Shown in pieces: positions 38,528 through 52,314 of a DNA stretch of 64,000 bases (the stretch's first letter is position 1; each line of letters starts with the position of its first letter). Source of the stretch: Duganella sp. Leaf126 (GTDB lineage Bacteria; Pseudomonadota; Gammaproteobacteria; Burkholderiales; Burkholderiaceae_D); NCBI RefSeq assembly GCF_001423125.1, contig NZ_LMNW01000012.1:310656-374655 (forward strand). Direction: 5' to 3'. Below the pieces are notes generated by a model. It was not told the DNA's origin. It searched no databases and saw nothing but the letters and a program-made list of their open reading frames with translations. Both the position numbers and the translations under genes were made by a program.

Positions 38528-39415
38528 ATGACCTGTACCATTACCCGCCGCGCCATGCTGCTGGCGCTCGTTGCCGCGCCAGTGGCCGGCGCCGCCGAAC
38601 TGCTGGACCGGCCGCCGGCTGCAACCGTCCTGTCGCCCGCCGCGCAACTGGCGCGCCTGGAGACGGACAGCAAGGGACGGCTCGGGGTCGCGGCCATCAA
38701 CACGGCCGATGGCGCCATCCTGTCCCATCGCGGCGACGAACGCTTCCCGTTGTGCAGCAGCTTCAAGGCCATGCTGGCGGCCGCCATCCTGCACCAGGAG
38801 CCGTCGCTGCTGGACCGGCGCATCCGGTACAAGGCGGCCGACCTGGTGACGTATTCGCCGGTCACGGGCCAGAACCTGGCGGACGGCATGACGGTCGGCG
38901 AGCTGTGTGCGGCAGCCATCCAGTACAGCGACAATACCGCCGCCAACCTTTTGATGAAACTGGTCAAGGGCCCGGCCGGCGTGACTGCGTTTGCGCGCAC
39001 GATCGGCGACAAGGCCTTCCGTCTCGACCGCTGGGAAACCGACCTCAGTACCGCGATTCCGGGCGACCCGCGCGACACCACCACCCCGTTGGCAATGATG
39101 AAATCGCTGCAAGGCGTCACGCTGGGACCGGCGCTGACGGTGGACAAGCGCAAGCAGCTGACCGAATGGCTGGTCGGGAACACCACCGGCGACACGCGCA
39201 TCCGCGCCGGCGTGCCGTTCGACTGGCAGGTGGGAGACAAGACCGGCACCGGCGCCCATGGCACCACCATCGATATCGGCGTGGTATGGCCGCCCGGGAA
39301 GGCGCCGGTGGTGATGGCGCTCTACTTCACGCAGCCGGGCAGGGACGACGCCGCCAATGCGGAGATACTGGCTGCAGCGGCCAGGGTGGTGGTGGAAGCG
39401 TTCAAGCTGGCCTAG
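38528..39415 (+). CDS. class A beta-lactamase
   Basis: The 295-residue protein has a short leader (TITRRAMLLALVAAPVAGAAE) and every class A motif: Ser77-Ser-Phe-Lys80 (SxxK), Ser134-Asp135-Asn136 (SDN), Glu170 in the omega loop (RWETDLSTAIPGD), and Lys238-Thr-Gly (DKTGTG). It should hydrolyse penicillins or cephalosporins in the periplasm. Two oddities: the omega-loop Asn normally four residues after the Glu is Ser174, and a Cys (Cys76) precedes the catalytic Ser as in some carbapenemases, but the partner Cys after KTG is absent. No AmpR-type regulator is adjacent. Its end overlaps the convergent PPTase gene by 14 bp. Confidence 0.93.
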   Translation: MTCTITRRAMLLALVAAPVAGAAELLDRPPAATVLSPAAQLARLETDSKGRLGVAAINTADGAILSHRGDERFPLCSSFKAMLAAAILHQEPSLLDRRIRYKAADLVTYSPVTGQNLADGMTVGELCAAAIQYSDNTAANLLMKLVKGPAGVTAFARTIGDKAFRLDRWETDLSTAIPGDPRDTTTPLAMMKSLQGVTLGPALTVDKRKQLTEWLVGNTTGDTRIRAGVPFDWQVGDKTGTGAHGTTIDIGVVWPPGKAPVVMALYFTQPGRDDAANAEILAAAARVVVEAFKLA

Positions 39416-39998
39416 TCGTGGCCGCGCCCTGGGTGTACACCAGGGTGCCCACCAGGTTGTCGGGCAAATCGAGTGTCACGGTCGCCCCCGACGACTGGCT
39501 GTGCGCCGGCCACTCGTCCAGCCCTACGCCCAGCCACTTCAGGTGCGCCTCGCGCGCCGTCCAGGCCTGCGCGAATGCGGCATCGCGCTCGGCGCGCGGC
39601 GTGGCGGCGATGCGCGCAGTTGTCTCCGGTCCCAGGTAATCGCGCGCCACCGCCTCCCAGCCCGCCACCTCTTCCGCCAGCATCAGGTCCACGCCCACCG
39701 GTCCGTTGAAGCACACTGCCGCCAGCGACATGCCGCCATCGTGCGCGAACGAGCAGTGCAGGCGCCGGCCATCGGGCAGCACCACCACCGGCGCTGCGCC
39801 GGGAAACGCTTCGATCTCGATCTCGCGCGGCGGCGTCTCGAGCAGCACGCCGAGGGCCTCGGCCAGTGCCTGGCGCAGCTGCTGGCGCGCTTCTTCGCGC
39901 TGCTCGCCGGTGGTCAGCCGGATCACGAACACGCCGTCGGTGATGGCCGGCGTGGCGCCGGGCCAGGCATGGACTGTCAATTGATCGATGGTGGTCAT
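39402..39998 (-). CDS. 4'-phosphopantetheinyl transferase superfamily protein
   Basis: The 198-residue protein has the Sfp-type motifs GVDLM (Asp104) and WTAREAHLKWLGVGL (Glu150, Lys154). It should load the phosphopantetheine arm on a carrier domain. The residue matching the second acid of the Sfp motif GVDIE is Met106, so metal binding relies on Asp104 and Glu150. It begins 4 bp after the NRPS-like gene on the same strand, so it is almost certainly the dedicated activator of that protein. Its last 14 bp overlap the end of the beta-lactamase gene. Confidence 0.85.
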   Translation of the reverse strand: MTTIDQLTVHAWPGATPAITDGVFVIRLTTGEQREEARQQLRQALAEALGVLLETPPREIEIEAFPGAAPVVVLPDGRRLHCSFAHDGGMSLAAVCFNGPVGVDLMLAEEVAGWEAVARDYLGPETTARIAATPRAERDAAFAQAWTAREAHLKWLGVGLDEWPAHSQSSGATVTLDLPDNLVGTLVYTQGAATTRPA

Positions 39999-40002
39999 TG
40001 TT

Positions 40003-43000
40003 TTATGCCTTTGCTGGCGCGGCGGGACAGCCGGCCCAGTTGCCGTTGGCGGGAATATGCTCGCCCTTCATCACCAGCGTGAAGGGGCCGAGACGCGCAT
40101 TGCGGCCGACGACCGCGCTGTAAAGTACAGCGCTGCGCGGACCCAGGTAGACCCGTTCGCCGATGTCGACCCCGTCGATCTTCATCACCCGGTCTTCGAA
40201 CAAGTGGGTTTGCGGGCAGGTGAGGGCATTGAGTTCGCTGTAGTCGCCGATGCGCACGCAGTCGAATTCGGTGATGTCGGTGGTATCCATGTACACGCCC
40301 TTGCCGATCTTCGCACCGAGCAGGTTGAAGGCCAGCGGCAGCCACGGCGTGCCGCGCAGGTAGCGCATGAAGTTCGGCACCGCGATCCCTTCGTACAGAT
40401 TGGTCACGCCTTCGGACAGCCAGACGAACGGCGTCCACATCGGCTCCGACTGCTTGCGGTAACGGCCGATCAGCAGCCACTTGAGCAGCACCACGAACAC
40501 ATAATTGCCGACGCCGTACACCAGGCCCGCCAGCGTCAGGTCCCAGATCACCTCGGCCCAGCGGCCGGCGCCGGCCGCCGGCATCACTTCCAGCACCACC
40601 GTGTAGCCGACCGCGATCACCAGCGCGTGCGGCGCGACGATGCGGAATGCCTCGATCAGGCCGCGCCCCAGGCGCCGCAACGGCGACGGGTGGAAGGTCA
40701 GCGATTCGGGATAGCCGCTGGTCTGCTCGCGCGCGGGCAGGTTCAGGGGCGGGGAGCCGAGCCAGGTGTCGCCGGTGTTCATGCGGGCGTTGCCCGGCGC
40801 GCGCGAGTGCACGCCGATCAGCACCTGTTCCGGCAGCACGGTGCCGTCCGGGATGTAGGCGCCGTTGCCGACGAAGCTGCGGTTCGAGACCACGGTGGGC
40901 TGCATGGTCATCCAGCCGCCGTCGATTTCCTCGTCGCCCAGCATCACCGCGTCGGCGATGAAGGTTTCGTCGCCGAGCGTGAGCATGTCGGGCACCACGC
41001 CCAGCGCGGTCGAGATTTCCGCATCCTTGCCCACCTTGGCGCCCAGCAGCCGGTACCAGTACGGTGCAAACACGGTGGCGTAGATGCCGTGCAGGACGTT
41101 CAGGCTCGATTCCTGGATCTGGCTCACCAGCCACTTGGCGCAGTAGGTGTTGCTGTGCACTGCCGAGCGGCCGGGCTTGAGGCGCGGCAGCACGGTCCAG
41201 CGGATGCCGGCCGACAGCAGCGCAGTCAGCACGATCAGCACCGTGCTGGCCGGGAAGGCCAGCACGAAATAGCGCAGCAGGCGGATGCCCATGCCTTCGC
41301 CCTGCAGCCACGGCATCCAGCCTGCCTCGTCGAACCAGTCGATCAGCACGAAGCTCGGGAACACCGGCATGAAGAACAGCGTGACGATGAGCAGGATGCC
41401 GAATACGAAAAAGCCGCCTTCGAGCAGGCTGCGCGCCGCGGTGACGGTCGGACGCGGCGGCAGGCGCGCCGGATCGAAGGCGCCCGCATCGGCAGCCGGC
41501 GAACCGGCCCAGAGCCGGCCGGCCGGTACGTGGGCGCCGTCGCCGAGCGCCGACTGGCCCTCGAGGTGGCCCTGGGCGTCGATGCGGGTATTGCCTTCCA
41601 GGACAGCGAACGAGCTGACGCAGGCGTCGCGCGCCAGCACGATGCGGCCCAGTTTGAGCACGCCGCGCTCGACCCGCGCGTTCTCGAAATTGACGGCGTT
41701 GCCGATGCTGACGAAGTCGCCCACGCTGAACAGGTCCGGCGCGCGCAAGGTCATCGAACCGATGGTGACATCCTTGCCGATCCTGGCGCCGAGTGCGCGC
41801 AGCCACCAGTTGTTCAGCGACGATCCGGCCAGCAGGTAGGCCGGCGCCGCCTCCACCAGCCGGTCGGCCAGCCACCAGCGGTAATAGGTCAGGCTCCACA
41901 GCGGGTATTCGCCCGGCTGCAGGCGCCCGGCGATCAGCCATTTGCCGCCGATGGCGATGGCGAATTCGAGCACCGTGGCGATCAGGAACACGCCGACCGA
42001 GGCGGCAATCGCGCGTGCGACCGAGTCGCCGGGGTCACCCGTGAAGAAGTGGTAGGTGAAGAATGGCGCCAGCCACTGCGCCATGCGCAGCGCCACCAGT
42101 CCCGGCATGGCCGCCGCCTGCGCCAGTCCGCAGAGCCAGCGCCGCGCGGTGGCGGGCGGTGTCCATTCGACTTCGGCGCGCGCCGCGCCGGCATCGCTGG
42201 CGCCGTCGGCCAGGGCCCGGGCGATCTTGCCGACCTGGCGCTGCTGGTAGATGTCGCGCACCGTCATGTGGGCGAAGCGCGGATCGGCGCGCAGGCTCGA
42301 GGCCAGTCGCGCAGCAAAGAACGAGTGGCCGCCGAGGTCGGAGAAAAAGTCGGCCTGGCGCAGGATGGGCTGGCCGGGGAACAGCGCGGCCAGCGCCGCG
42401 AACAGCGCGGCTTCGGCCGGCGTTTCGGGCAGGTCCGATTCGGCCGCGCTGCCGGCCGGCGGCGCCGACAGCGGCATGGCCTTGAGCGCCTTGCGGTCGA
42501 TCTTGCCGGAGGTCAGGCGCGGCATGGCTGCCTGCATCTCGTAGCGGCCCGGCACCATATAAGGGGGCAAGGTCGCCGCCAGCGCCGCGCGCAGGCTCTT
42601 CGGATCGAGCGTCACGCCTGCTTCCGGCACCAGATAGGCCACCAGCTGATCGATGCCGTCGTCCTTGCGCAGCAGCACCGCCACCGTGCCCACGCCCGGC
42701 TGCTGCGCCAGCAGCGCTTCGATCTCGCCCAGCTCCACGCGGAACCCGCGGATCTTGACCTGGTCGTCGGCGCGGCCCAGGCAAGTCACCTCGCCGTCGG
42801 TGCCGATGCGCGCCAGGTCGCCGGTGCGGTACAGGCGGCTGTCGTGCACGCCGCTGGACCACGGGTTGGCCAGGAATTTTTCCGCCGTCAGGTCGGGCCG
42901 GCCCAGGTAGCCGGCTGCCAGGCCCGGTCCCGTGATACACAGTTCGCCGACCTCGCCGACGGGCAGCAGACGCAGGGCGCCGGCCTCCGGGTTGGCCTCG

Positions 43001-44082
43001 ATCACCAGCAAGCCGTAATTGGGCAGCGGCGTGCCGATGGTGACCGGGTGGCCGGGGCGCAGGCGCGCCAGGCTGGCCGACACCGTCGCTTCGGTCGGGC
43101 CGTAGGTGTTGAACATCTGCCGGCCCGGGCGCGACCAGCGCTCCACCAGCGACTCCGGGCACGCTTCGCCGCCCAGGTTAATCAGGCGCAGCGACGGCAC
43201 CTCCTGGTTGAACAGCGCCAGCAGCGTGGGTACGGCGTGCAGCACCGTGACCTGGTGGGCGTCGAGCATGCGCGGCAGCGTTTCCGGGTCGCCGCTGATG
43301 TCCTTGGGGCCGATCCACAGCGTGGCGCCGGCCAGGTAGGAAATCCAGATTTCCTCGAACGACATGTCGAAAGCCACCGAAAAGCCCTGGTACACCTTGT
43401 CGGCGGCGGTCACCTGCAGCACCGCATTCTCGCTGCGCAGGAAGTGGCAGATGCTGCGCTGGGAGATCAGGATGCCTTTCGGCTTGCCGGTGGAGCCGGA
43501 CGTGTAGATCACGTACGCCGGCGCATCGGGCGAGACCGGACCGCGCGTGGCCAGCAGCTCGTCCGCCCCGCGGGCGGCCAGCAGCGCCTCGATGGTCCAG
43601 GCGGGCCGGCCGACCGGGGCCAGGCGCGGGGCCAGCGCGGCGCTGGTGACCACGCCGGCGCCGTCGGCGTCGTCGAGGCATACCTGCAAACGCTCGACCG
43701 GCGTGTCTTCATCGACCGGCAGCCAGGCCGCGCCGGCCTTGGCGATGCCGGCCTGCGCCACCAGCAGGTCGATCCCGCGCGGCAGCCACAGGCCGACGAT
43801 CTGGCCGGGCCGCACGCCGGCGGCGATCAGGCGGGCCGCCACCAGGGCGGCCCGGGCGTCCAGCTCGCGGTAGGTCAGGGTGCGGTCGCCGAAGATCAGC
43901 GCCGGCTGTTCGGGCGCGCGCGCGGCGCTTGCTTCGAGCAAGTCGGCGAGAATTTCCTCGCGCAGCAACGCATCGTCGGGCGGCCCGAACAGGATGTCGG
44001 GATGGCGGCTGGGATGGCGTGGATCAAGGCCCTGCGGTGCTGGCTCGGTCATGCTGAAAAAGTGTGGATGAGAGGCGATCAT
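40003..44082 (-). CDS. Pls/PosA-type membrane NRPS: adenylation, carrier and left-handed beta-helix domains
   Basis: The 1359-residue protein has one adenylation domain (residues about 40-520: YTSGSTGKPKG, FDMSFEEIW, NTYGPTEATV, YRTGDLARIG, LTSGKIDRKAL), a carrier domain with phosphopantetheine Ser587 (DLGGHSFF), then an unusual C-terminal half of about 740 residues with roughly six membrane helices and three blocks of hexapeptide-repeat left-handed helix (for example GARIGKDVTIGSM, GAKVGKDAEISTA, GAKIGKGVYMDTT). This is the terminal domain of the Pls/PosA family; epsilon-poly-lysine synthetase is the known relative. Hand-aligned specificity residues (GrsA 235-331) read D, M, E, H, N, G, T, V, S. 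There is no condensation or thioesterase domain. The start could also be the ATG at 44052. Confidence 0.85.
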   Translation of the reverse strand: MIASHPHFFSMTEPAPQGLDPRHPSRHPDILFGPPDDALLREEILADLLEASAARAPEQPALIFGDRTLTYRELDARAALVAARLIAAGVRPGQIVGLWLPRGIDLLVAQAGIAKAGAAWLPVDEDTPVERLQVCLDDADGAGVVTSAALAPRLAPVGRPAWTIEALLAARGADELLATRGPVSPDAPAYVIYTSGSTGKPKGILISQRSICHFLRSENAVLQVTAADKVYQGFSVAFDMSFEEIWISYLAGATLWIGPKDISGDPETLPRMLDAHQVTVLHAVPTLLALFNQEVPSLRLINLGGEACPESLVERWSRPGRQMFNTYGPTEATVSASLARLRPGHPVTIGTPLPNYGLLVIEANPEAGALRLLPVGEVGELCITGPGLAAGYLGRPDLTAEKFLANPWSSGVHDSRLYRTGDLARIGTDGEVTCLGRADDQVKIRGFRVELGEIEALLAQQPGVGTVAVLLRKDDGIDQLVAYLVPEAGVTLDPKSLRAALAATLPPYMVPGRYEMQAAMPRLTSGKIDRKALKAMPLSAPPAGSAAESDLPETPAEAALFAALAALFPGQPILRQADFFSDLGGHSFFAARLASSLRADPRFAHMTVRDIYQQRQVGKIARALADGASDAGAARAEVEWTPPATARRWLCGLAQAAAMPGLVALRMAQWLAPFFTYHFFTGDPGDSVARAIAASVGVFLIATVLEFAIAIGGKWLIAGRLQPGEYPLWSLTYYRWWLADRLVEAAPAYLLAGSSLNNWWLRALGARIGKDVTIGSMTLRAPDLFSVGDFVSIGNAVNFENARVERGVLKLGRIVLARDACVSSFAVLEGNTRIDAQGHLEGQSALGDGAHVPAGRLWAGSPAADAGAFDPARLPPRPTVTAARSLLEGGFFVFGILLIVTLFFMPVFPSFVLIDWFDEAGWMPWLQGEGMGIRLLRYFVLAFPASTVLIVLTALLSAGIRWTVLPRLKPGRSAVHSNTYCAKWLVSQIQESSLNVLHGIYATVFAPYWYRLLGAKVGKDAEISTALGVVPDMLTLGDETFIADAVMLGDEEIDGGWMTMQPTVVSNRSFVGNGAYIPDGTVLPEQVLIGVHSRAPGNARMNTGDTWLGSPPLNLPAREQTSGYPESLTFHPSPLRRLGRGLIEAFRIVAPHALVIAVGYTVVLEVMPAAGAGRWAEVIWDLTLAGLVYGVGNYVFVVLLKWLLIGRYRKQSEPMWTPFVWLSEGVTNLYEGIAVPNFMRYLRGTPWLPLAFNLLGAKIGKGVYMDTTDITEFDCVRIGDYSELNALTCPQTHLFEDRVMKIDGVDIGERVYLGPRSAVLYSAVVGRNARLGPFTLVMKGEHIPANGNWAGCPAAPAKA

Positions 44083-44138
44083 TGTACGCCACGGCCACCC
44101 GTTTTACCGCTGACCTGTCTTAGCCGTAAGGAGAAATC

Positions 44139-44164
44139 TGCAACGGTGTGCAACTGGATGCAAC
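44139..44164 (+). promoter_or_regulatory. Three phased TGCAAC repeats before amn
   Basis: TGCAAC occurs at 44139, 44149 and 44159, exactly 10 bp apart, so all copies face the same side of the helix. The third copy covers the expected -35 position of the amn promoter. Confidence 0.7.
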
Positions 44165-44180
44165 TTCGGCTGGCAGCCCT

Positions 44181-44186
44181 TACAAT
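44181..44186 (+). promoter_or_regulatory. Candidate -10 box of amn
   Basis: TACAAT stands 17 bp after the third TGCAAC repeat. There is no good TTGACA-type -35, which fits an activator-dependent promoter using the repeats. Transcription would begin near 44193. Confidence 0.55.
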
Positions 44187-44196
44187 GCCATTCAGC

Positions 44197-44244
44197 GAAC
44201 CTCGGAAAACCCTAGCGGATCGCGCAGCAGGTTTTACGAGGTTC
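44197..44244 (+). promoter_or_regulatory. 15-bp hairpin in the amn leader
   Basis: GAACCTCGGAAAACC (44197-44211) pairs with GGTTTTACGAGGTTC (44230-44244) with a single mismatch and an 18-base loop. It would form at the very 5' end of the amn mRNA and ends 28 bases before the ATG. No U-run follows directly, so a stabilising or regulatory role is likelier than plain termination. Confidence 0.7.
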
Positions 44245-44272
44245 CTTTCAGAGCTATCTTTTAAGGAGTCGT

Positions 44273-45790
44273 ATGTCACCGATCCGTCCTTCGAACCGAC
44301 CGTTCATCGCACCCGTGCAGTTCGACGATCCCGAAGCTGCGTTCGACCAGGTGCTGACCATTTACGACGCCGGCATCGAGCACCTGCGCGATGCCATGAA
44401 GCGCTTCGTGGCCGGTGAAGACGTGGGCGACCACGTGCGCGCCTGCTACCCGTTCGTGCGGGTCCACACCGATACCGTGGCCCGCGCCGATTCGCGCCTG
44501 GCGTTCGGCTTCGTGGCCGGCCCGGGCACGTATGAAACCACCGTGACCCGGCCCGACCTGTTCAAGCGCTATTACATCCAGCAGTTCAAGCTGCTGCTGA
44601 AAAATCACGGGCACCGCCAGCAGGTGCGCATCGAGGTCGGCACCAGCGCCCAGCCGATCCCGATCCACTTCTCGTTCGCCGAGCACGAACATATAGAAGG
44701 CAGCCTGACGATGGAGCGGCGCCTGCTGATGCGCGACGTGTTCGACCTGCCCAACCTGGCCGCGATGGACGACGGCATCGCCAACGGCACCCACGAGCCG
44801 GCGCCGGGCGAGGCGCAGCCGCTGGCGCTGTTTACGGCGCCGCGCGTGGACTACTCGCTGCAGCGGCTGCGCCATTACACGGGCACCTCGTGCGAACACT
44901 TCCAGAAGTTCGTCCTGTTTACCAATTACCAGTTCTACATCGACGAATTCGTCAAGCTCGGTCATGAGCTGATGGGCCAGGCGGCAGGGGAAGGGGACAA
45001 TGCCTACATCGCCTTCGTGGAACCGGGCAACCTGGTGACGCGCCGCGTGGGCCAGTCGGTGGCGCCGGGCGACGCCTACGGCACCCAGCCGCCACGGCTG
45101 CCGCAGATGCCCGGCTATCACCTGATCCGCGCCGACGGTTCGGGCATCTCGATGGTCAATATCGGCGTCGGTCCGGCCAACGCCAAGACCATTACCGACC
45201 ACATCGCCGTGCTGCGCCCGCACTGCTGGCTGATGCTGGGCCACTGCGCCGGGTTGCGCAACACCCAGGAACTGGGCGACTACGTGCTGGCCCACGGCTA
45301 CGTGCGCGAAGACCATGTGCTCGACGAAGACCTGCCGCTGTGGGTGCCGATCCCGCCGCTGGCGGAGGTGCAGGTGGCAATCGAGGCGGCGGTGGCCGAG
45401 GTGACCCAGCTCACCGGCCATGACCTGAAACGCGTGATGCGCACCGGGACCGTGGCCAGCACCGACAACCGCAACTGGGAGCTGCTGCCGCAGCGCACGC
45501 CCGAGCGCCGTTTCAGCCAGAGCCGCGCGATCGCGCTCGACATGGAAAGTGCAACCATCGCTGCCAACGGTTTCCGCTTCCGCGTCCCGTACGGCACGCT
45601 GCTGTGCGTGAGCGACAAGCCGATGCACGGCGAGATCAAGCTGCCCGGCATGGCCAACCAGTTCTACCGCGACCGCGTGGACCAGCACCTGCGCATCGGC
45701 ATCAAGGCGCTGGAGATGCTGCGCAATCTCGGCGTGGACAAGCTGCACAGCCGCAAATTGCGCAGTTTTACGGAGGTCGCCTTCCAGTAG
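44273..45790 (+). CDS. amn: AMP nucleosidase
   Basis: The 505-residue protein matches AMP nucleosidase over its length: an N-terminal regulatory part (FDDPEAAFDQVLTIYDAGIEHLRDAM) and a C-terminal nucleoside-phosphorylase-like catalytic half (MVNIGVGPANAKTITDHIAVLRPHCWLMLGHCAGLR, then IALDMESATIAANGFRFRVPYGTLLCVSDKP). It hydrolyses AMP to adenine and ribose 5-phosphate and adjusts the purine pool. TAAGGAG stands 5 bp before the ATG. It is divergent from the NRPS-like gene across 190 bp and is followed by a terminator. The upstream repeats and leader hairpin suggest it is well regulated. Confidence 0.95.
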   Translation: MSPIRPSNRPFIAPVQFDDPEAAFDQVLTIYDAGIEHLRDAMKRFVAGEDVGDHVRACYPFVRVHTDTVARADSRLAFGFVAGPGTYETTVTRPDLFKRYYIQQFKLLLKNHGHRQQVRIEVGTSAQPIPIHFSFAEHEHIEGSLTMERRLLMRDVFDLPNLAAMDDGIANGTHEPAPGEAQPLALFTAPRVDYSLQRLRHYTGTSCEHFQKFVLFTNYQFYIDEFVKLGHELMGQAAGEGDNAYIAFVEPGNLVTRRVGQSVAPGDAYGTQPPRLPQMPGYHLIRADGSGISMVNIGVGPANAKTITDHIAVLRPHCWLMLGHCAGLRNTQELGDYVLAHGYVREDHVLDEDLPLWVPIPPLAEVQVAIEAAVAEVTQLTGHDLKRVMRTGTVASTDNRNWELLPQRTPERRFSQSRAIALDMESATIAANGFRFRVPYGTLLCVSDKPMHGEIKLPGMANQFYRDRVDQHLRIGIKALEMLRNLGVDKLHSRKLRSFTEVAFQ

Positions 45791-45994: not shown

Positions 45995-48673
45995 ATGAAA
46001 CCCTCGAACTACGGGGCCGCACGGCCCTGCGCGCAGCATCGCCTGGTCCTGACGTCGGGCGCCGCACTGCTGGCCGCCGCCGGCCTGCTCACCACCTTGC
46101 CCGTACTGGCCCAGCAGGCCGCACCGGCTGCCACTGCCGCCAACTCTACCGCCGCCGACGCCAACGTGTCGGTGGTGACCGTCACCGGCATGCGCCGGGC
46201 GGCCGAGTCGGCGCAAAAGCTCAAGCAGGATGCCGACAACGTCATCGATTCCATCGTTGCCGACGATATTGGCAAGTTCCCGGACACGAACGTGGCGCAA
46301 ACCCTGGCCCGGGTGACCGGCATCCAGGTGCGCCGCGACGCCGGCGAAGCCAACTCCGTCCTGATCCGCGGCCTGCCCGGCATCGCCACGCTGCTCAACG
46401 GGCGCGAGATGTTTACCACCACCGGCCGCTACATCCAGCTGGCCGACATTCCGTCCACCATGCTGCAACGGGTGGACGTCTACAAGTCGCAAAGCGCCGA
46501 TCAGGTGGAAGGCGGCATCGCCGGTGTGATCGACGTGCGCACCAACCGGCCATTCGACTTCAAGGACTTTACCGCCAGCGCGCAGGTCGGCGCCAAGCAC
46601 AAGGACAAGGCAGGCGCCACCGATCCGGAACTGTCGGGCATGATCTCGAACCGCTGGCAAACCGGTTTCGGTGAAGTGGGCGCCCTGTTCGGCGTGTCGT
46701 CGGTGAAAGACCGCTTCCAGGAAGAGCGCGTGTTCCAGACCTTCCCGATCGATAAGAGCTTCGCGGCGCCCAACCTCACCGGTCCCGACCTGGTGGGGCT
46801 GCAGAACGTGCACGGCGAACGCAAGCGGCAGGCAGCCAACTATGCGTTCCAGTGGAAGCCCAACAAGGACCTGGAACTGTACGCCGAAGGGCTGTACACC
46901 AAGTACAAGAACAACGACCAGACCGATTTCTTTGTCGGCCTGCCTTGGGCCACGACGCCGGATCAGATCAAGGTCACCAAGATCCCCGGCACCGACCAGG
47001 CGCAGACCATCGATTCGACCAACAGCTACACCATCCTGTCCACGCAGGCGCGTGCCTCCGAAAACACCACCTGGCAAAGCGCCGTCGGCGCCAAATGGCG
47101 CGTGGCGCCAGGCCTGCGCGCCAGCACCGAGCTGGCCAGGACGAACAGCAAGTATGACTGGGTCAATCCGATCCTGGACACCAGCACCACCGCAGCGGCG
47201 GCTTCCATCCGGACCAATGCCGACAAGAGCCCGTATGCGCAATACACGGGCGCCGGCCTGACCGACCCGACCAAGATCGTCCTTTCGCAGTTCTTCGACC
47301 GGTATGGCTACGATCGCGGCAAGTCGACCGACTGGCGGGCGGACGCCACCTGGACCCCGGAAAACGACGGCTTCCTGAAAGACGTGAACTTCGGCGTGCG
47401 CTACAACGAGCGCCAGGCCAGCTCGATCAAATCGTTCGAAGGCAGTGTGCCGGCGCAGAATCCCGCCACCATGGCCAGCATCCCCGGCCTGTCGTGCACG
47501 TCGCCGGCGCTGTCGGAGAATTTCGGCACTTCGGGATGGGCCACGCCGTGCGCGAACTTCCTGGTCAATAACACTGCCACGATCCGGGCCGCCGTTACCG
47601 GCAACGCTGCGGCGAGGGCGATCGATCCGGCGTCGTTCTTCGAGAACACCGAGAAGAACTATGCAGCGTACGTGACGACCCGGGTCGGCTTTGACCTCGG
47701 TGCCTACCCGGTTGACGGGGTCGTGGGCGTGCGGGTATCGAAGACCGATTCGACCATCAATGCCAATAATGCGACGACGTCGGGCGCCACGACCACCTAC
47801 GCGCCGACCAGCATCGACACCTCGGGCACCGAGGTGCTGCCGAGCGCGAACTTCAAACTGGCGATCCGCAAGGACCTGCTGGCCCGTTTCGCGTACAACA
47901 AGACGCTCACGCGCCCCGATTTTGCACAACTCAATCCGGCCACCGCCTACGTCAATCCGAATGTCACCACCACGCCCGCCACGGCGTCCGGCGGCAATCC
48001 CGGTCTGAAACCGTTCACGGGCCAGAATTTCGACGCCACGCTCGAATGGTATTTCGCGTCCACCGGCTCGGTCAGCGGCACCGTGTTCCGTCATAATTTC
48101 GACGGTTACATCATGAACCAGCGTTCGAGCGAGATCTACCAGGGTATCAACTACACGGTCACCCGTCCGTTCAATACCGACAAGGGCCACCTGCAGGGCG
48201 TGGAACTGGCGTACCAGCAGTTCTACGACACCTTGCCGGGCTGGCTGAGCGGCCTCGGTCTGCAGGCCAACGTCACCTACACCCAGGGCGGCGTCGATTC
48301 GTCGATCGACCCTACCATCGCCGACAAGCCGTTCGCCGGCATGTCGCGGCTGTCGTACAACATCGTCGGGCTGTACGAGAAGGACGCGTGGTCGGCGCGG
48401 CTGGCCTACAACTGGCGCTCGAAGTTCACCCAGGTATACAGCGATTCGACCGATGTCAACAACCCGGTGCGCAAGGACCTGATTGCTGCACCGATTTCCT
48501 CGCTCGACGGCTCGCTCAGCTACAAGCTGACCAGGCAGGTCACGCTGAACCTGACCGGCACCAATCTGCTCAACTTCAAGTACCGCGATTACTGGGATAA
48601 CGAGAACATCTTCCCGCGCGATACCCGCAGCTACGATCGCACGGTGGGCCTGTCGATGAATGTCAAGTATTAA
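45995..48673 (+). CDS. TonB-dependent receptor, carbohydrate type
   Basis: The 892-residue protein has a signal region ending near VLAQQA, a TonB box (VSVVTVTGMRRA), a plug domain (ADDIGKFPDTNVAQTLARVTGIQVRRD...SVLIRGLPG) and a large barrel ending NVKY. The plug sequence is of the Xanthomonas/Caulobacter TonB-receptor class that takes up oligosaccharides. As first gene of a locus with GH43, GH51, GH97 and GH127 enzymes, it should bring arabinose-containing oligosaccharides across the outer membrane. It is preceded by the palindrome at 45867-45886 and followed 35 bp later by a sugar symporter gene. Confidence 0.92.
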   Translation: MKPSNYGAARPCAQHRLVLTSGAALLAAAGLLTTLPVLAQQAAPAATAANSTAADANVSVVTVTGMRRAAESAQKLKQDADNVIDSIVADDIGKFPDTNVAQTLARVTGIQVRRDAGEANSVLIRGLPGIATLLNGREMFTTTGRYIQLADIPSTMLQRVDVYKSQSADQVEGGIAGVIDVRTNRPFDFKDFTASAQVGAKHKDKAGATDPELSGMISNRWQTGFGEVGALFGVSSVKDRFQEERVFQTFPIDKSFAAPNLTGPDLVGLQNVHGERKRQAANYAFQWKPNKDLELYAEGLYTKYKNNDQTDFFVGLPWATTPDQIKVTKIPGTDQAQTIDSTNSYTILSTQARASENTTWQSAVGAKWRVAPGLRASTELARTNSKYDWVNPILDTSTTAAAASIRTNADKSPYAQYTGAGLTDPTKIVLSQFFDRYGYDRGKSTDWRADATWTPENDGFLKDVNFGVRYNERQASSIKSFEGSVPAQNPATMASIPGLSCTSPALSENFGTSGWATPCANFLVNNTATIRAAVTGNAAARAIDPASFFENTEKNYAAYVTTRVGFDLGAYPVDGVVGVRVSKTDSTINANNATTSGATTTYAPTSIDTSGTEVLPSANFKLAIRKDLLARFAYNKTLTRPDFAQLNPATAYVNPNVTTTPATASGGNPGLKPFTGQNFDATLEWYFASTGSVSGTVFRHNFDGYIMNQRSSEIYQGINYTVTRPFNTDKGHLQGVELAYQQFYDTLPGWLSGLGLQANVTYTQGGVDSSIDPTIADKPFAGMSRLSYNIVGLYEKDAWSARLAYNWRSKFTQVYSDSTDVNNPVRKDLIAAPISSLDGSLSYKLTRQVTLNLTGTNLLNFKYRDYWDNENIFPRDTRSYDRTVGLSMNVKY

Positions 48674-48708
48674 GCAGTCCGGTGGATTGATGGAGAGGTA
48701 GCAGGCAG

Positions 48709-50064
48709 ATGTCGAATCAAAAATTATCGCTGTTGGAAAAAGTGGGGTTCGGCGCCGGTGACATGGCGCTGAACGTGGTGATTTCGTCGATGATGTTGAT
48801 CATCACGTTCTTCTACACCGACATCTACGGTCTGAAGACGTCCGACCTGGCCTTGCTGTTCCTGGTCGTCAAGGTGGTAGGGGCCATCGGCGACCTGGTG
48901 GTGGGCCAGCTGACCGACCGCTATACCAGCCTGCGCATGGGCCGCTACCGTCCTTGGCTGCTGGCGCTGGCCATCCCGTACGGCGTCAGCGTGTTCTTCG
49001 TGTTCACCACGCCGGACTGGGCGTACAGCGCCAAGCTGGTGTGGGCCTATTCCACCTACATCATCATGACCCTGATGACGTCCGGCGTCGGTGTGGCGTA
49101 TATCTCGCTGCCCAGCAGCCTGACCGACGATCCGCAGGACCGGCTGTCGGCCAACGGCTACCGGCTGTTCTTCGCCAAGATCGGCGCCTTCATGGTGACG
49201 GTGGTGGTGCCGTTCCTGTCCGAGCGCTGGGGCGGCGGCAATCCGGCCGTCGGCTACCAGGCGGCGATGGCCGTGATGGCCGTGGTGGGCGTGCTGCTAT
49301 TCCTGTTCTGCGTGTTCGCCACCACCGAACGGGTACGCCACGTGGTGCAGCGCCAGCCGCTGGGCGACCAGATCAAGCTGCTGCTGAAAAACGACCAGTG
49401 GCTGATCCTGTGCGGCGTGTGCGTGGTGGGCACCGTGGGCTACGTGGTGCGGGCGTCGGCCGCCATCTATTACGCCAAGTACTACCTGGGCGGGAATACC
49501 GCCACGGTGTCCACCTTTCTGTCGATCGGCGTGGTGGCGGCCATCCTCTCGATGATCGCCTCGACCTGGACCACCAAGTTCTATTGCAAGGTCAAGCTGT
49601 TCCGCTGGTCGCAGATCGCGGTCGGCGCGATCAGTGCGCTGATCTATTTTGTCGTCAAGCCCGGCGATGTGATGCTGGCGTTCGTGCTGTACTTCGTGCT
49701 GTCGTTCGTGGTGGACCTGCATGCGCCGGTGTTCTGGTCGGCGATCGCCGAAACGATCGATTACGGCCAGGTCAAGACCGGCAAGCGCGTATCGGGCTTT
49801 GCCTATGGCGGCATCTCGGTCTGTCAGAAAGCGGGCATGGGCATTGCCGGGGTGTTGGTGGGGTGGCTGCTTACGTATTTCCAGTACGCGCCCAACCATG
49901 AACAGACGCCGTTTGCGCTGCACGGCATCGTGCTGATGGTGACGCTGATCCCGGGCTTCTTCCACACCGTGATGGGACTGATGATGTTCCGCTACCGCGT
50001 GACGGACCGTTATTATGCGCAGGTGAAGCAGCAGATGCAGTCTTCGCCTGCCCCCACACTGTAA
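48709..50064 (+). CDS. GPH-type sugar/cation symporter
   Basis: The 451-residue inner-membrane protein has about 12 helices and the glycoside-pentoside-hexuronide (MelB-like) pattern: LSLLEKVGFGAGDMALNVV at the start, then VVGAIGDLVVGQLTDRYTSLRMGRYRPWLL, the typical loop 2-3 motif. It imports glycosides or pentosides with H+ or Na+. Between the outer-membrane receptor and a GH43 enzyme that lacks a signal peptide, it probably brings arabino-oligosaccharides into the cytoplasm. AGGTAG precedes the ATG, and the next gene follows after 26 bp. Confidence 0.92.
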   Translation: MSNQKLSLLEKVGFGAGDMALNVVISSMMLIITFFYTDIYGLKTSDLALLFLVVKVVGAIGDLVVGQLTDRYTSLRMGRYRPWLLALAIPYGVSVFFVFTTPDWAYSAKLVWAYSTYIIMTLMTSGVGVAYISLPSSLTDDPQDRLSANGYRLFFAKIGAFMVTVVVPFLSERWGGGNPAVGYQAAMAVMAVVGVLLFLFCVFATTERVRHVVQRQPLGDQIKLLLKNDQWLILCGVCVVGTVGYVVRASAAIYYAKYYLGGNTATVSTFLSIGVVAAILSMIASTWTTKFYCKVKLFRWSQIAVGAISALIYFVVKPGDVMLAFVLYFVLSFVVDLHAPVFWSAIAETIDYGQVKTGKRVSGFAYGGISVCQKAGMGIAGVLVGWLLTYFQYAPNHEQTPFALHGIVLMVTLIPGFFHTVMGLMMFRYRVTDRYYAQVKQQMQSSPAPTL

Positions 50065-50090
50065 ATACCTGTAACTTACTTGCAAACCCG

Positions 50091-51056
50091 ATGGCCACTC
50101 CAAGCACTCCACAACCTGTCCTGCAACCGCTGATCGAACAGCGCGCCGACCCGTTCATCATGCGTCACACGGACGGCTATTATTATTTCACCGCTTCGGT
50201 GCCGCAATACGACCGCATCGAGCTGCGCCGCGCCAAGACCATCGCCGGCCTGGCGGATGCCGAGAAGGTCGATGTCTGGCACAAGCCCGACACCGGCCCG
50301 TATAGTGAACTGATCTGGGCGCCCGAGCTGCACTTCAACGATGGCGCCTGGTATGTCTATTTTGCGGCCGCGCCGAGCCGCGAGATCAAGCACAAGCTGT
50401 TCCAGCATCGTATGTATGCGATCCGCAATACCAGCGCCAATCCACTGGAAGGCGCGTGGGAATTCATGGGCCGGATCGACACCGGCATCGACACCTTCTG
50501 CCTCGACGCCACCACCTTTACCCACCGCGGGCAGCTGTACTACCTGTGGGCGCAGAAGGATGTGGCCATCGAAGGCAATTCCAACTTGTACATCGCGCCG
50601 ATGAAAACCCCGTGGCAGCTGGGCGGGCCGCCGGTCATGCTGAGCAAGCCGGAATTCGACTGGGAGACGCGCGGCTTCTGGGTCAACGAGGGACCGTCGG
50701 TCCTGCAACGCAACGGCAAGATCTTCATCACCTACTCGGCCAGCGCCACCGACGAGAACTACGCGATGGGCCTGCTGTGGGCCGACGACGACGCCGACGT
50801 GCTGGACCCGGCGGCATGGACCAAGAGCGCGCAACCGGTGCTGCAGACCTGCTTCGAGCACGGCGTGTACGGGCCCGGTCATAACAGTTTCACCATCGGC
50901 GACGATGGTGAAACCGTCATGTTGGTTTATCATGCCAGGACTTACACCGAGATCATCGGCGACCCGCTGTGGAATCCGGACCGTCATACCTATGTCAAGC
51001 CGCTCAAGTGGGACGGGCAGGGGATGCCGGTGTTCGGCAAGCCATCGATCGCCTGA
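50091..51056 (+). CDS. intracellular GH43 glycosidase
   Basis: The 321-residue protein has the five-bladed GH43 fold with general base Asp20 (QRADPFIMRHTDGYYYFTAS), the pKa-modulating Asp139 (TFCLDATTF) and general acid Glu200 (FWVNEGPSV). There is no signal peptide, so it acts in the cytoplasm. GH43 covers arabinofuranosidases, xylosidases and arabinanases; the context favours alpha-L-arabinofuranosidase on imported oligosaccharides. It follows the symporter gene by 26 bp. Confidence 0.9.
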   Translation: MATPSTPQPVLQPLIEQRADPFIMRHTDGYYYFTASVPQYDRIELRRAKTIAGLADAEKVDVWHKPDTGPYSELIWAPELHFNDGAWYVYFAAAPSREIKHKLFQHRMYAIRNTSANPLEGAWEFMGRIDTGIDTFCLDATTFTHRGQLYYLWAQKDVAIEGNSNLYIAPMKTPWQLGGPPVMLSKPEFDWETRGFWVNEGPSVLQRNGKIFITYSASATDENYAMGLLWADDDADVLDPAAWTKSAQPVLQTCFEHGVYGPGHNSFTIGDDGETVMLVYHARTYTEIIGDPLWNPDRHTYVKPLKWDGQGMPVFGKPSIA

Positions 51057-51066
51057 TGTTAAAAAC

Positions 51067-51093
51067 TGGGCCCCCGCCTGCGCAGGGGCGACG
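51067..51093 (-). repeat. REP-like repeat, inverted copy
   Basis: A 27-bp element with the palindromic core CCCCGCCTGCGCAGGGG. Read on the minus strand it matches the element at 51165-51191 with a few changes. The two form an inverted pair about 70 bp apart in the gap between the GH43 and galM genes. Confidence 0.7.
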
Positions 51094-51164
51094 GAGCTGG
51101 CTGCAACGGTTGATTTATCGTCATCGCATCGTATGCGCGACAAAGTCACCGATACAGGTCGATC

Positions 51165-51191
51165 CGTCATCCCCGCGCAGGCGGGGATCCA
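51165..51191 (+). repeat. REP-like repeat, direct copy
   Basis: A 27-bp element beginning CGTCATCCCCGCGCAGG and ending GGATCCA, with core CCCCGC..GCGGGG. An identical copy is at 54245-54271. Such extragenic palindromes are widespread in proteobacteria. Confidence 0.75.
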
Positions 51192-51206
51192 ATCGACACC
51201 ACGCCA

Positions 51207-51235
51207 CGGCCGGAAAGGGTGATTCCTTCCGGCCG
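51207..51235. promoter_or_regulatory. Hairpin upstream of galM
   Basis: CGGCCGGAA (51207-51215) and TTCCGGCCG (51227-51235) are perfect arms with an 11-base loop, ending 20 bp before the galM ATG and just above its ribosome-binding site. It may terminate, protect or set the level of the galM part of the transcript. Confidence 0.5.
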
Positions 51236-51255
51236 CATTCACATGGAGACACCCG

Positions 51256-52314
51256 ATGCAAGCCACGATTACCGAAGCCCCGTTCGGTCAGCTGCCCGAC
51301 GGCCGCGCCGTCACCGAATACACGCTCACCAACGCCAGCGGCATGATCGTCAAGATTCTCGACCTGGGCGGCGTGATCACTGAAATCCACGTGCCCGACC
51401 GCGACGGCAAACTGGCCGACGTGGTCTGCAGCTTCGACGACGTCGCCGCCTACCTGGGCGAATCGCATTACTTCGGCGCGCTAATCGGCCGTTACGGCAA
51501 CCGCATCGCCAACGGCCGCTTCACGCTGGACGGCAAGCAGTACCAGCTCGACGTCAACAACGGCGTCAACCACCTGCACGGCGGCACCGACGGCTTCCAC
51601 CGCCGCCTGTGGACAGCCGAAACCTTCACCACGCCCACCTCGGCGGGCCTGATCCTCAGTTACCTGAGCGCCGACGGCGAGCAGGGCTACCCGGGCCAGC
51701 TCGACACCACGGTCATTTACGAGCTGCGCGCCGCGAACGAATTGCGCATCGCCTTCCATGCCATCACCGACCACGCCACGCCGGTCAACCTGACCAATCA
51801 TGCCTACTTCAACCTGGCCGGCGGCGGCGACATACTCGGCCACGAACTGACCATCCACGCCGACCGCTACACGCCGATCGACGAGGTGCAGATTCCGCTC
51901 GGCCCGCTCGCGCCGGTGGCCGGCACGCCGTTCGACTTCCGCACCCCGCACGCCATCGGCGAGCGGATCGACGCCGATGACGGGCAACTGCGCAACGGCG
52001 CCGGCTACGACCATAACTTCGTGCTGGCCAGGCCGCAGGAAGCTGCACTGGCGCTGGCGGCGCGCGTGCGCGAACCGGGCTCGGGCCGGGTGCTCGAGGT
52101 CTGGACCCAGGAACCGGGCATCCAGTTCTACAGCGGTAACTTCCTTGGCGACGCCATCCGCGGCAAAGGGCGCACCTACGGCCACCGCAGCGCGTTTTGC
52201 CTGGAACCCCAGCATTTTCCCGATTCGCCCAACCAGCCCGACTACCCATCGACGATCCTGCGCCCCGGCGCCGAGTACGCGACCGTGATGGCTTACCGGT
52301 TCACGACCGACTGA
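51256..52314 (+). CDS. galM: aldose 1-epimerase
   Basis: The 352-residue protein has the galactose mutarotase fold and catalytic motifs: LIGRYGNRIANGRF, NHLHGGTDGFHRRLW, a His in VNLTNHAYFNLAG and Asp/Glu in GYDHNFVL and EVWTQEPGIQFYSGN. It interconverts alpha and beta anomers of aldoses, supplying the right anomer to a sugar dehydrogenase. No signal peptide. The locus context suggests arabinose or xylose as substrate. It follows the GH43 gene by 199 bp holding a repeat pair and a hairpin. Confidence 0.92.
   Translation: MQATITEAPFGQLPDGRAVTEYTLTNASGMIVKILDLGGVITEIHVPDRDGKLADVVCSFDDVAAYLGESHYFGALIGRYGNRIANGRFTLDGKQYQLDVNNGVNHLHGGTDGFHRRLWTAETFTTPTSAGLILSYLSADGEQGYPGQLDTTVIYELRAANELRIAFHAITDHATPVNLTNHAYFNLAGGGDILGHELTIHADRYTPIDEVQIPLGPLAPVAGTPFDFRTPHAIGERIDADDGQLRNGAGYDHNFVLARPQEAALALAARVREPGSGRVLEVWTQEPGIQFYSGNFLGDAIRGKGRTYGHRSAFCLEPQHFPDSPNQPDYPSTILRPGAEYATVMAYRFTTD

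Follow-up and report, generated by a model that had tools for sequence, protein, structure and literature searches.

Whole-locus analysis of a 64,000-nucleotide stretch of the Duganella sp. Leaf126 genome (contig NZ_LMNW01000012.1, positions 310,656 to 374,655; hereafter the window) showed a gene for a 1359-residue non-ribosomal peptide synthetase (NRPS) of the Pls/PosA family at 40003..44082 on the minus strand. It was followed, after an intergenic gap of 4 bp, by a gene for a 198-residue phosphopantetheinyl transferase (PPTase) at 39402..39998 on the same strand. The family match, the alignment to PosA, the specificity code and the position in the tree indicated that the synthetase is very probably a delta-poly-L-ornithine synthetase of the PosA type, armed by the adjoining PPTase, and that its likely product is a short, positively charged chain of delta-poly-L-ornithine and not an acylated amino acid. 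The enzyme is of a known kind and has a known close relative, PosA of Acinetobacter baumannii; the new elements are the frequent PPTase partner and the prediction of a single condensing site, both of which we infer.

Family assignment and specificity pocket

The terminal polymerisation domain (residues 654-1354; 40021..42123, minus strand) matched the NCBIfam model TIGR02353, "Pls/PosA family non-ribosomal peptide synthetase", with 833.3 bits against a cut-off of 423.1. The adenylation (A) domain, approximately residues 41-535 (42478..43962, minus strand), was identified with TIGR01733 (407 bits at residues 70-469), PF00501 (254.6 bits) and the alignment to PosA. The carrier (thiolation) domain lies at approximately residues 560-624 (42211..42405, minus strand) with Ser587 in LGGHS, and the motif DLGGHS with this serine was present in 106 of 106 alignment rows. 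Since Pfam PP-binding gave 18.3 bits for residues 545-639 alone, under its cut-off of 20.8, and had no match at E <= 0.01 when the full-length protein was searched, the carrier call is based on three things: the motif, the longer NRPS models spanning the region and the helices that the structural model places ahead of the membrane region. The Pfam matches of the synthetase at E <= 0.01 included neither a condensation nor a thioesterase family, and the protein has, as the TIGR02353 family does, one A and one carrier domain without either of the two.

An initial annotation, made from the letters of the DNA, had described one A and one carrier domain, membrane helices and three beta-helices with no condensation or thioesterase domain, had related the protein to epsilon-poly-lysine synthetase and had placed a PPTase gene 4 bp after it. 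The layout was confirmed by TIGR01733, TIGR02353, the motif, the structural model and Pfam, the kinship by the 833 bits on TIGR02353, and the PPTase gene by PF01648 and the open reading frame coordinates.

Results from phmmer showed that the best single-domain matches were the A-domain structures of PosA (8G95-8G98, 514-518 bits). Linear gramicidin synthetase outranked PosA only through the summing of two A domains. Identity to the A. baumannii orthologue (L190) was 61% over the A domain and 55% over the whole length, and the nearest synthetase among the matches listed, from which nearer records may be left out, was that of Duganella phyllosphaerae (93% identity).

The pocket residues D239, M240, E243, H282, N302, G304, T326, V334, S335 and K527 read DMEHNGTVSK, which is identical in the alignment to the ten-residue code published for PosA, in which D217, M218, E221, H260, N280, T304, V312 and S313 are given by number (PMC10522769). 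The same alignment route applied to the A. baumannii orthologue returned the PosA code. We take D239 to be the aspartate that binds the alpha-amine, and position 239 of the GrsA numbering to correspond to E243 of the synthetase. The "Glu at position 239" of the initial annotation is therefore correct under GrsA numbering and incorrect in the numbering of the protein itself, in which residue 239 is Asp.

The code DMEHNGTVSK was found in all 106 alignment rows, which comprised the window, an 80-locus set and 25 loci of the same genus. The 80-locus set held the best 80 of 451 relatives retrieved with two peptide patterns, and its code count is biased, as one pattern (FDMSFEE) contains three code residues (D, M and E). 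The count in the 25 same-genus loci, which share certain genomes with the 80-locus set, is free of this bias because the family model and not the patterns retrieved them.

PosA is a delta-poly-L-ornithine synthetase that prefers ornithine and makes a 7-12-mer with a delta-linked isopeptide bond; the residues for the side-chain amine contacts and the alpha-amine contact, and a Met for chain length, had their roles shown (PMC10522769). The window protein would, by analogy, act as PosA does, the only enzyme for which the ornithine preference, the 7-12-mer and the isopeptide bond were shown; in the literature searched, an ornithine polymer was demonstrated only for the Acinetobacter enzyme. That the product is instead a homopolymer of lysine or of diaminobutyrate is highly improbable. 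The PosA A domain does accept lysine weakly (PMC10522769, Table 1), but PosA formed no lysine polymer in that study, and Met240 at pocket position 2 is of the ornithine type, whereas the relatives compared here have Ala where the code is of the lysine type, as in epsilon-poly-L-lysine synthetase (Pls), and Phe where the context is that of diaminobutyrate (typing rule of PMC10522769). The expectation of a basic amino acid as substrate and of a membrane homopolymer as the likely product was supported, while the proposal that an acylated amino acid is just as likely was not. The initial annotation had also stated that no product was known for the architecture, but four cationic homopolymers were already known (epsilon-poly-lysine, delta-poly-ornithine, poly-diaminopropionate and poly-diaminobutyrate; PMC10522769, Discussion), and the characterised orthologue of known product that it had named as refuting its proposal exists, in effect, as A. 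baumannii PosA.

Terminal domain and the H1293 site

The AlphaFold2 model of residues 545-1359 (47 rows; pLDDT 92, pTM 0.91) predicted six long helices arranged as three pairs, with a beta-helix after every pair (C1, C2 and C3). Five of the six helices passed a hydrophobicity threshold of 1.5 over 19 residues, and the first, with a peak of 1.37, was weakly hydrophobic; as modelled, the protein has the six membrane helices in three pairs and the three beta-helix repeats of its family. PosA was modelled alike, and its three segments were proposed to form one domain with approximate threefold symmetry (PMC10522769). Matches from Foldseek and VIA-align showed the hexapeptide acyltransferase fold, mainly for C1; VIA-align coverage was almost confined to C1, and absent matches elsewhere are uninformative. 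Pfam Hexapep matched in C3.

A single-repeat homologue of the terminal domain was observed at the same-genus loci L061-L083 (e.g. L075, 5683-6348). Its 219-226 residues comprise an N-terminal membrane segment and a single beta-helix, which resembles a third of the terminal domain, and it is 25-28% identical to the last synthetase repeat where the match is long. At L061, L068 and L075 it stands after ThiF-like and nitroreductase-like genes (families checked for L075 only).

The C3 motif Q1291-x-H1293-x-x-E1296-...-K1301 (QTHLFEDRVMK; 40180..40212, minus strand) contains the candidate catalytic histidine, H1293, which is the sole histidine of the terminal domain kept in 47 of 47 rows. The HxxE pattern was present in C3 of all 47 rows, in C1 of 1 and in C2 of 3. 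The joint alignment gave a histidine in the H1293 column in 0 of 12 C1, 0 of 12 C2, 12 of 12 C3 and 10 of 10 single-repeat rows. Residues Q1291, H1293, D1044, G1072 and N1073 (D1044 and N1073 lie in C2) were invariant in 21 of 21 rows; the set covers actinobacterial enzymes whose codes are of the lysine and diaminobutyrate types, and also the shorter L195. The histidine of the single-repeat protein aligned with that of maltose O-acetyltransferases (1OCX, 2IC7), which is presumably catalytic. The A3 profile placed H1293 opposite no histidine in the four alignments to solved structures that were shown, and the connection of H1293 to the acetyltransferase histidine is indirect, via the single-repeat protein.

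The lack of this histidine in C1 and C2 and its presence in C3 and the single-repeat relatives suggests that H1293 in C3 is the one condensing site and that C1 and C2 have a structural role in a fused trimer. No prior statement of a single condensing site in C3 was found in the literature searched, the scope of which excluded subscription papers; domain-mutant work on Pls may exist.

The hexapeptide acyltransferase fold of the terminal domain bears on another explanation, in which no homopolymer is formed and the activated ornithine is either transferred to a lipid, glycan or polyamine of the envelope or N-acylated by the enzyme. The single-repeat relatives resemble acyltransferases, and a synthetase with a Pls/PosA-like domain occurs in a hybrid lipid cluster (PMC13291983). 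PosA, however, with the same code and architecture, alone yields a homopolymer in vitro (PMC10522769), and no acyl donor or acceptor gene family was recurrent beside the synthetase in 20 compared loci, although that comparison undercounts. This explanation was considered improbable.

In the favoured reading, of an ornithine-polymerising enzyme like PosA, the PPTase would place the phosphopantetheine arm on Ser587, and the A domain would activate L-ornithine with ATP. By matching to the PosA residues, E243, T326 and S335 would hold the side-chain amine and D239 the alpha-amine, and M240 would set the chain length. The ornithine would then go onto the arm as a thioester, the third beta-helix (H1293) would serve as the single condensing site with C1 and C2 as structural parts, and the polymer would exit the cell.

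PPTase partner, distribution and neighbourhood

The PPTase matched PF01648 with 41.9 bits (cut-off 25). Conservation across 69 rows was 99% for D104 and E150 and 97% for K154, which we take to be the metal-binding and catalytic residues. A profile grown from the window PPTase, used for genes on the same strand with a stop 300-1500 nt beyond the synthetase stop, showed a PPTase downstream of the synthetase in 68 of the 80 loci and in 19 of the 25 same-genus loci; the profile may miss distant PPTases. The 12 loci of the 80 without a PPTase were from Collimonas (four), Rugamonas (two), Massilia (two), Duganella, Janthinobacterium, an Oxalobacteraceae bacterium and a Burkholderiaceae assembly (one each).

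The family was found over cut-off in 26 of 398 genomes of the window's phylum, and a set of 26 wider loci was formed from the 25 besides the window's own and L183, which is below cut-off. A downstream PPTase was present in 2 of these (L168 and L169), both with the ornithine code; the sequence of another, L189, ends with the synthetase gene. Four wider loci carried DMEHNGTVSK, and the other codes were DFEALGTVTK, DLEDIGSVVK, DLEDLGTVVK, DVEANGTGSK, DMEHNGTVTK and, in L183, DSECYGGVTK, which is the Bdellovibrionales code (PMC10522769). At L179 (DLEDIGSVVK) a weak PPTase match (60 bits) was observed directly upstream. None of the 11 annotated plasmid-record loci, including A. baumannii, had a PPTase listed beside the synthetase gene, in a gene table that is incomplete.

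Comparison of these loci points to the PPTase as a frequent partner of the ornithine-branch synthetases, and the small gene probably switches the synthetase on. That the PPTase is a general enzyme, adjoining by chance and serving the synthetase no more than others, was judged rather unlikely. The PPTase diverges fast relative to the synthetase (37-49% identity in most same-genus loci and 84% for the nearest, versus 80-92% for the synthetase), and four other PF01648 matches in the genome mean that it is not the only one there. Against this, the PPTase stands on the same strand directly downstream in loci of Oxalobacteraceae, other Betaproteobacteria and Pseudomonas, while no other family recurred in more than 3 of the 20 loci, which were hand-chosen across genera. 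A separate multi-module NRPS cluster of the same genome (contig C23, ~10-45 kb or, more widely delimited, ~7-45 kb) has its own PF01648 match ~3 kb away. The activator had been called "dedicated" in the initial annotation; the conserved gene order agreed with this, but dedication itself did not follow, given the 12 of 80 loci without the neighbour and the four other matches.

Several findings weigh against the overall interpretation of the window as a PPTase-armed ornithine polymerase with one condensing site. The product and activity of the window protein are predicted from relatives, and the 55% whole-length identity to the A. baumannii orthologue means that polymer length or tailoring may differ. 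The PPTase neighbour was missing in 12 of the 80 and 6 of the 25 same-genus loci, and two of the four wider loci that carry DMEHNGTVSK (L171 and L175) had no PPTase match. E1296 is not universal, being His in 4 of 21 rows, which are the four DAESIGTVVK rows, and the argument for H1293 is one of conservation alone.

Phylogenetic analysis was done on 57 hand-chosen rows, 31 of them from the 80-locus set, with a quick method. The window and A. baumannii fell in one 37-row clade (support 100), every member of which has the ornithine code; several outer rows were flagged for long branches and unlike composition, and L175 and L190 for composition. Ornithine-type pockets have been reported in many bacteria and drawn as a single tree branch (PMC10522769). 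The 80-locus set showed this branch in Duganella, Massilia, Janthinobacterium, Collimonas, Polaromonas and Pseudomonas. Seven Pseudomonas-type rows (support 100; one identical to P. poae) were nested in the betaproteobacterial part, with forks above them of 99 and 97, and this nesting points to a transfer across the boundary of the beta- and gammaproteobacteria. The label "PPTase adjacent", which for plasmid-record rows was taken from annotation alone, needed 7 changes on the tree versus 18.7 in shuffles, and the pattern would fit a single gain of the PPTase that postdates the divergence from Acinetobacter, with later losses. Relatives with other codes had other gene contexts: L192 (DFECLSAVTK) and L199 (DFECLSVVTK) lie beside diaminobutyrate transaminase genes, the pocket matching the precursor supply, and L193 (DAESIGTVVK) adjoins an M1 peptidase.

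The synthetase probably starts at M11 (base 44052, minus strand), a column invariant in 12 aligned sequences. A promoter and terminator scan of 39300-44400 gave 0 promoter-like sites and 1 terminator-like site versus 2.1 expected, none above shuffles. The 20-locus neighbour table undercounts, as its choice of open reading frames by GC bias kept 8 of 18 known PPTases and lost the synthetase in one locus. A very conserved housekeeping gene, for AMP nucleosidase (44273-45790, plus strand), is divergent from the synthetase, and a class A beta-lactamase gene (38528-39415, plus strand) stands tail to tail with the PPTase gene with a 14 bp overlap. The beta-lactamase scored 329 bits versus 200 for the general class A model, fell under the PEN and LUT type cut-offs and lay inside the retrieved stretch of 17 of the 25 same-genus loci (genus-only search). 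Both genes adjoin the synthetase in many same-genus loci. Further along (45995-52314, plus strand), lookalikes of a TonB receptor, a sugar MFS transporter, a glycosidase and an aldose epimerase were noted by eye, perhaps a sugar-use locus.

The single-repeat homologue was absent from the window's genome. At E < 1e-69 it was present in 23 of 25 other same-genus genomes with the synthetase, the exceptions being G012 and G034, and in none of the 11 without it. G049, a genome from outside the genus, encodes the homologue but lacks a synthetase match above cut-off. The AMP nucleosidase splits the same genomes almost cleanly (85-97% identity to the window's in the 25 synthetase-positive relatives, 80-85% in the 11 negative). 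A functional link between the homologue and the synthetase was not drawn from this, because shared descent can explain such a co-occurrence.

A joint reading can be put forward tentatively, at slightly less than even chances. The synthetase and its own PPTase would be a two-gene cassette of the proteobacterial ornithine branch that moved between Oxalobacteraceae and Pseudomonas. Throughout the Pls/PosA family, the terminal domain would be a pseudo-trimer that arose from a membrane acyltransferase with one repeat, of which many related genomes, but not that of the window, keep a separate copy; C1 and C2 would have lost their catalytic histidine, which leaves peptide-bond formation to C3 (H1293). 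If true, the three "condensation domains" would really be one site, and H1293 would be a single-residue handle on peptide-bond formation without a condensation domain, a matter left open in the modelling section on PosA (PMC10522769). The window adds a concrete member to the ornithine branch, and the PPTase partner may aid heterologous production.

Comparison with known systems

The synthetase resembles PosA (PDB 8G95-8G98) in architecture, ten-residue code and clade. It differs in its gene context: posA is a single-gene operon (PMC10522769) and no PPTase is listed next to the gene in L190, whereas in the window a PPTase follows after 4 bp. The term "NAPAA type" is used for synthetases of the Pls/PosA family (PMC13291983).

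With Pls (Streptomyces albulus, A domain 7WEW; Corynebacterium) it shares the order of A, carrier and terminal domains, Pls having six membrane and three acetyltransferase-like segments (PMC8117764), and the Q-x-H motif of C3 is also present in four actinobacterial relatives with the code DAESIGTVVK. The C3 of these four reads QTHLFHDR, in contrast to QTHLFEDR in the window. Pls also differs in the Ala at pocket position 2, where the window protein has Met, and in its neighbour, a peptidase that degrades the polymer in Streptomyces (PMC8117764), in place of the PPTase of the window. Unlike the hexapeptide acyltransferases (maltose and galactoside O-acetyltransferase, serine acetyltransferase, VatA and VatD), the synthetase fuses three beta-helices and membrane helices in one chain, and within it the histidine is kept in C3 only.

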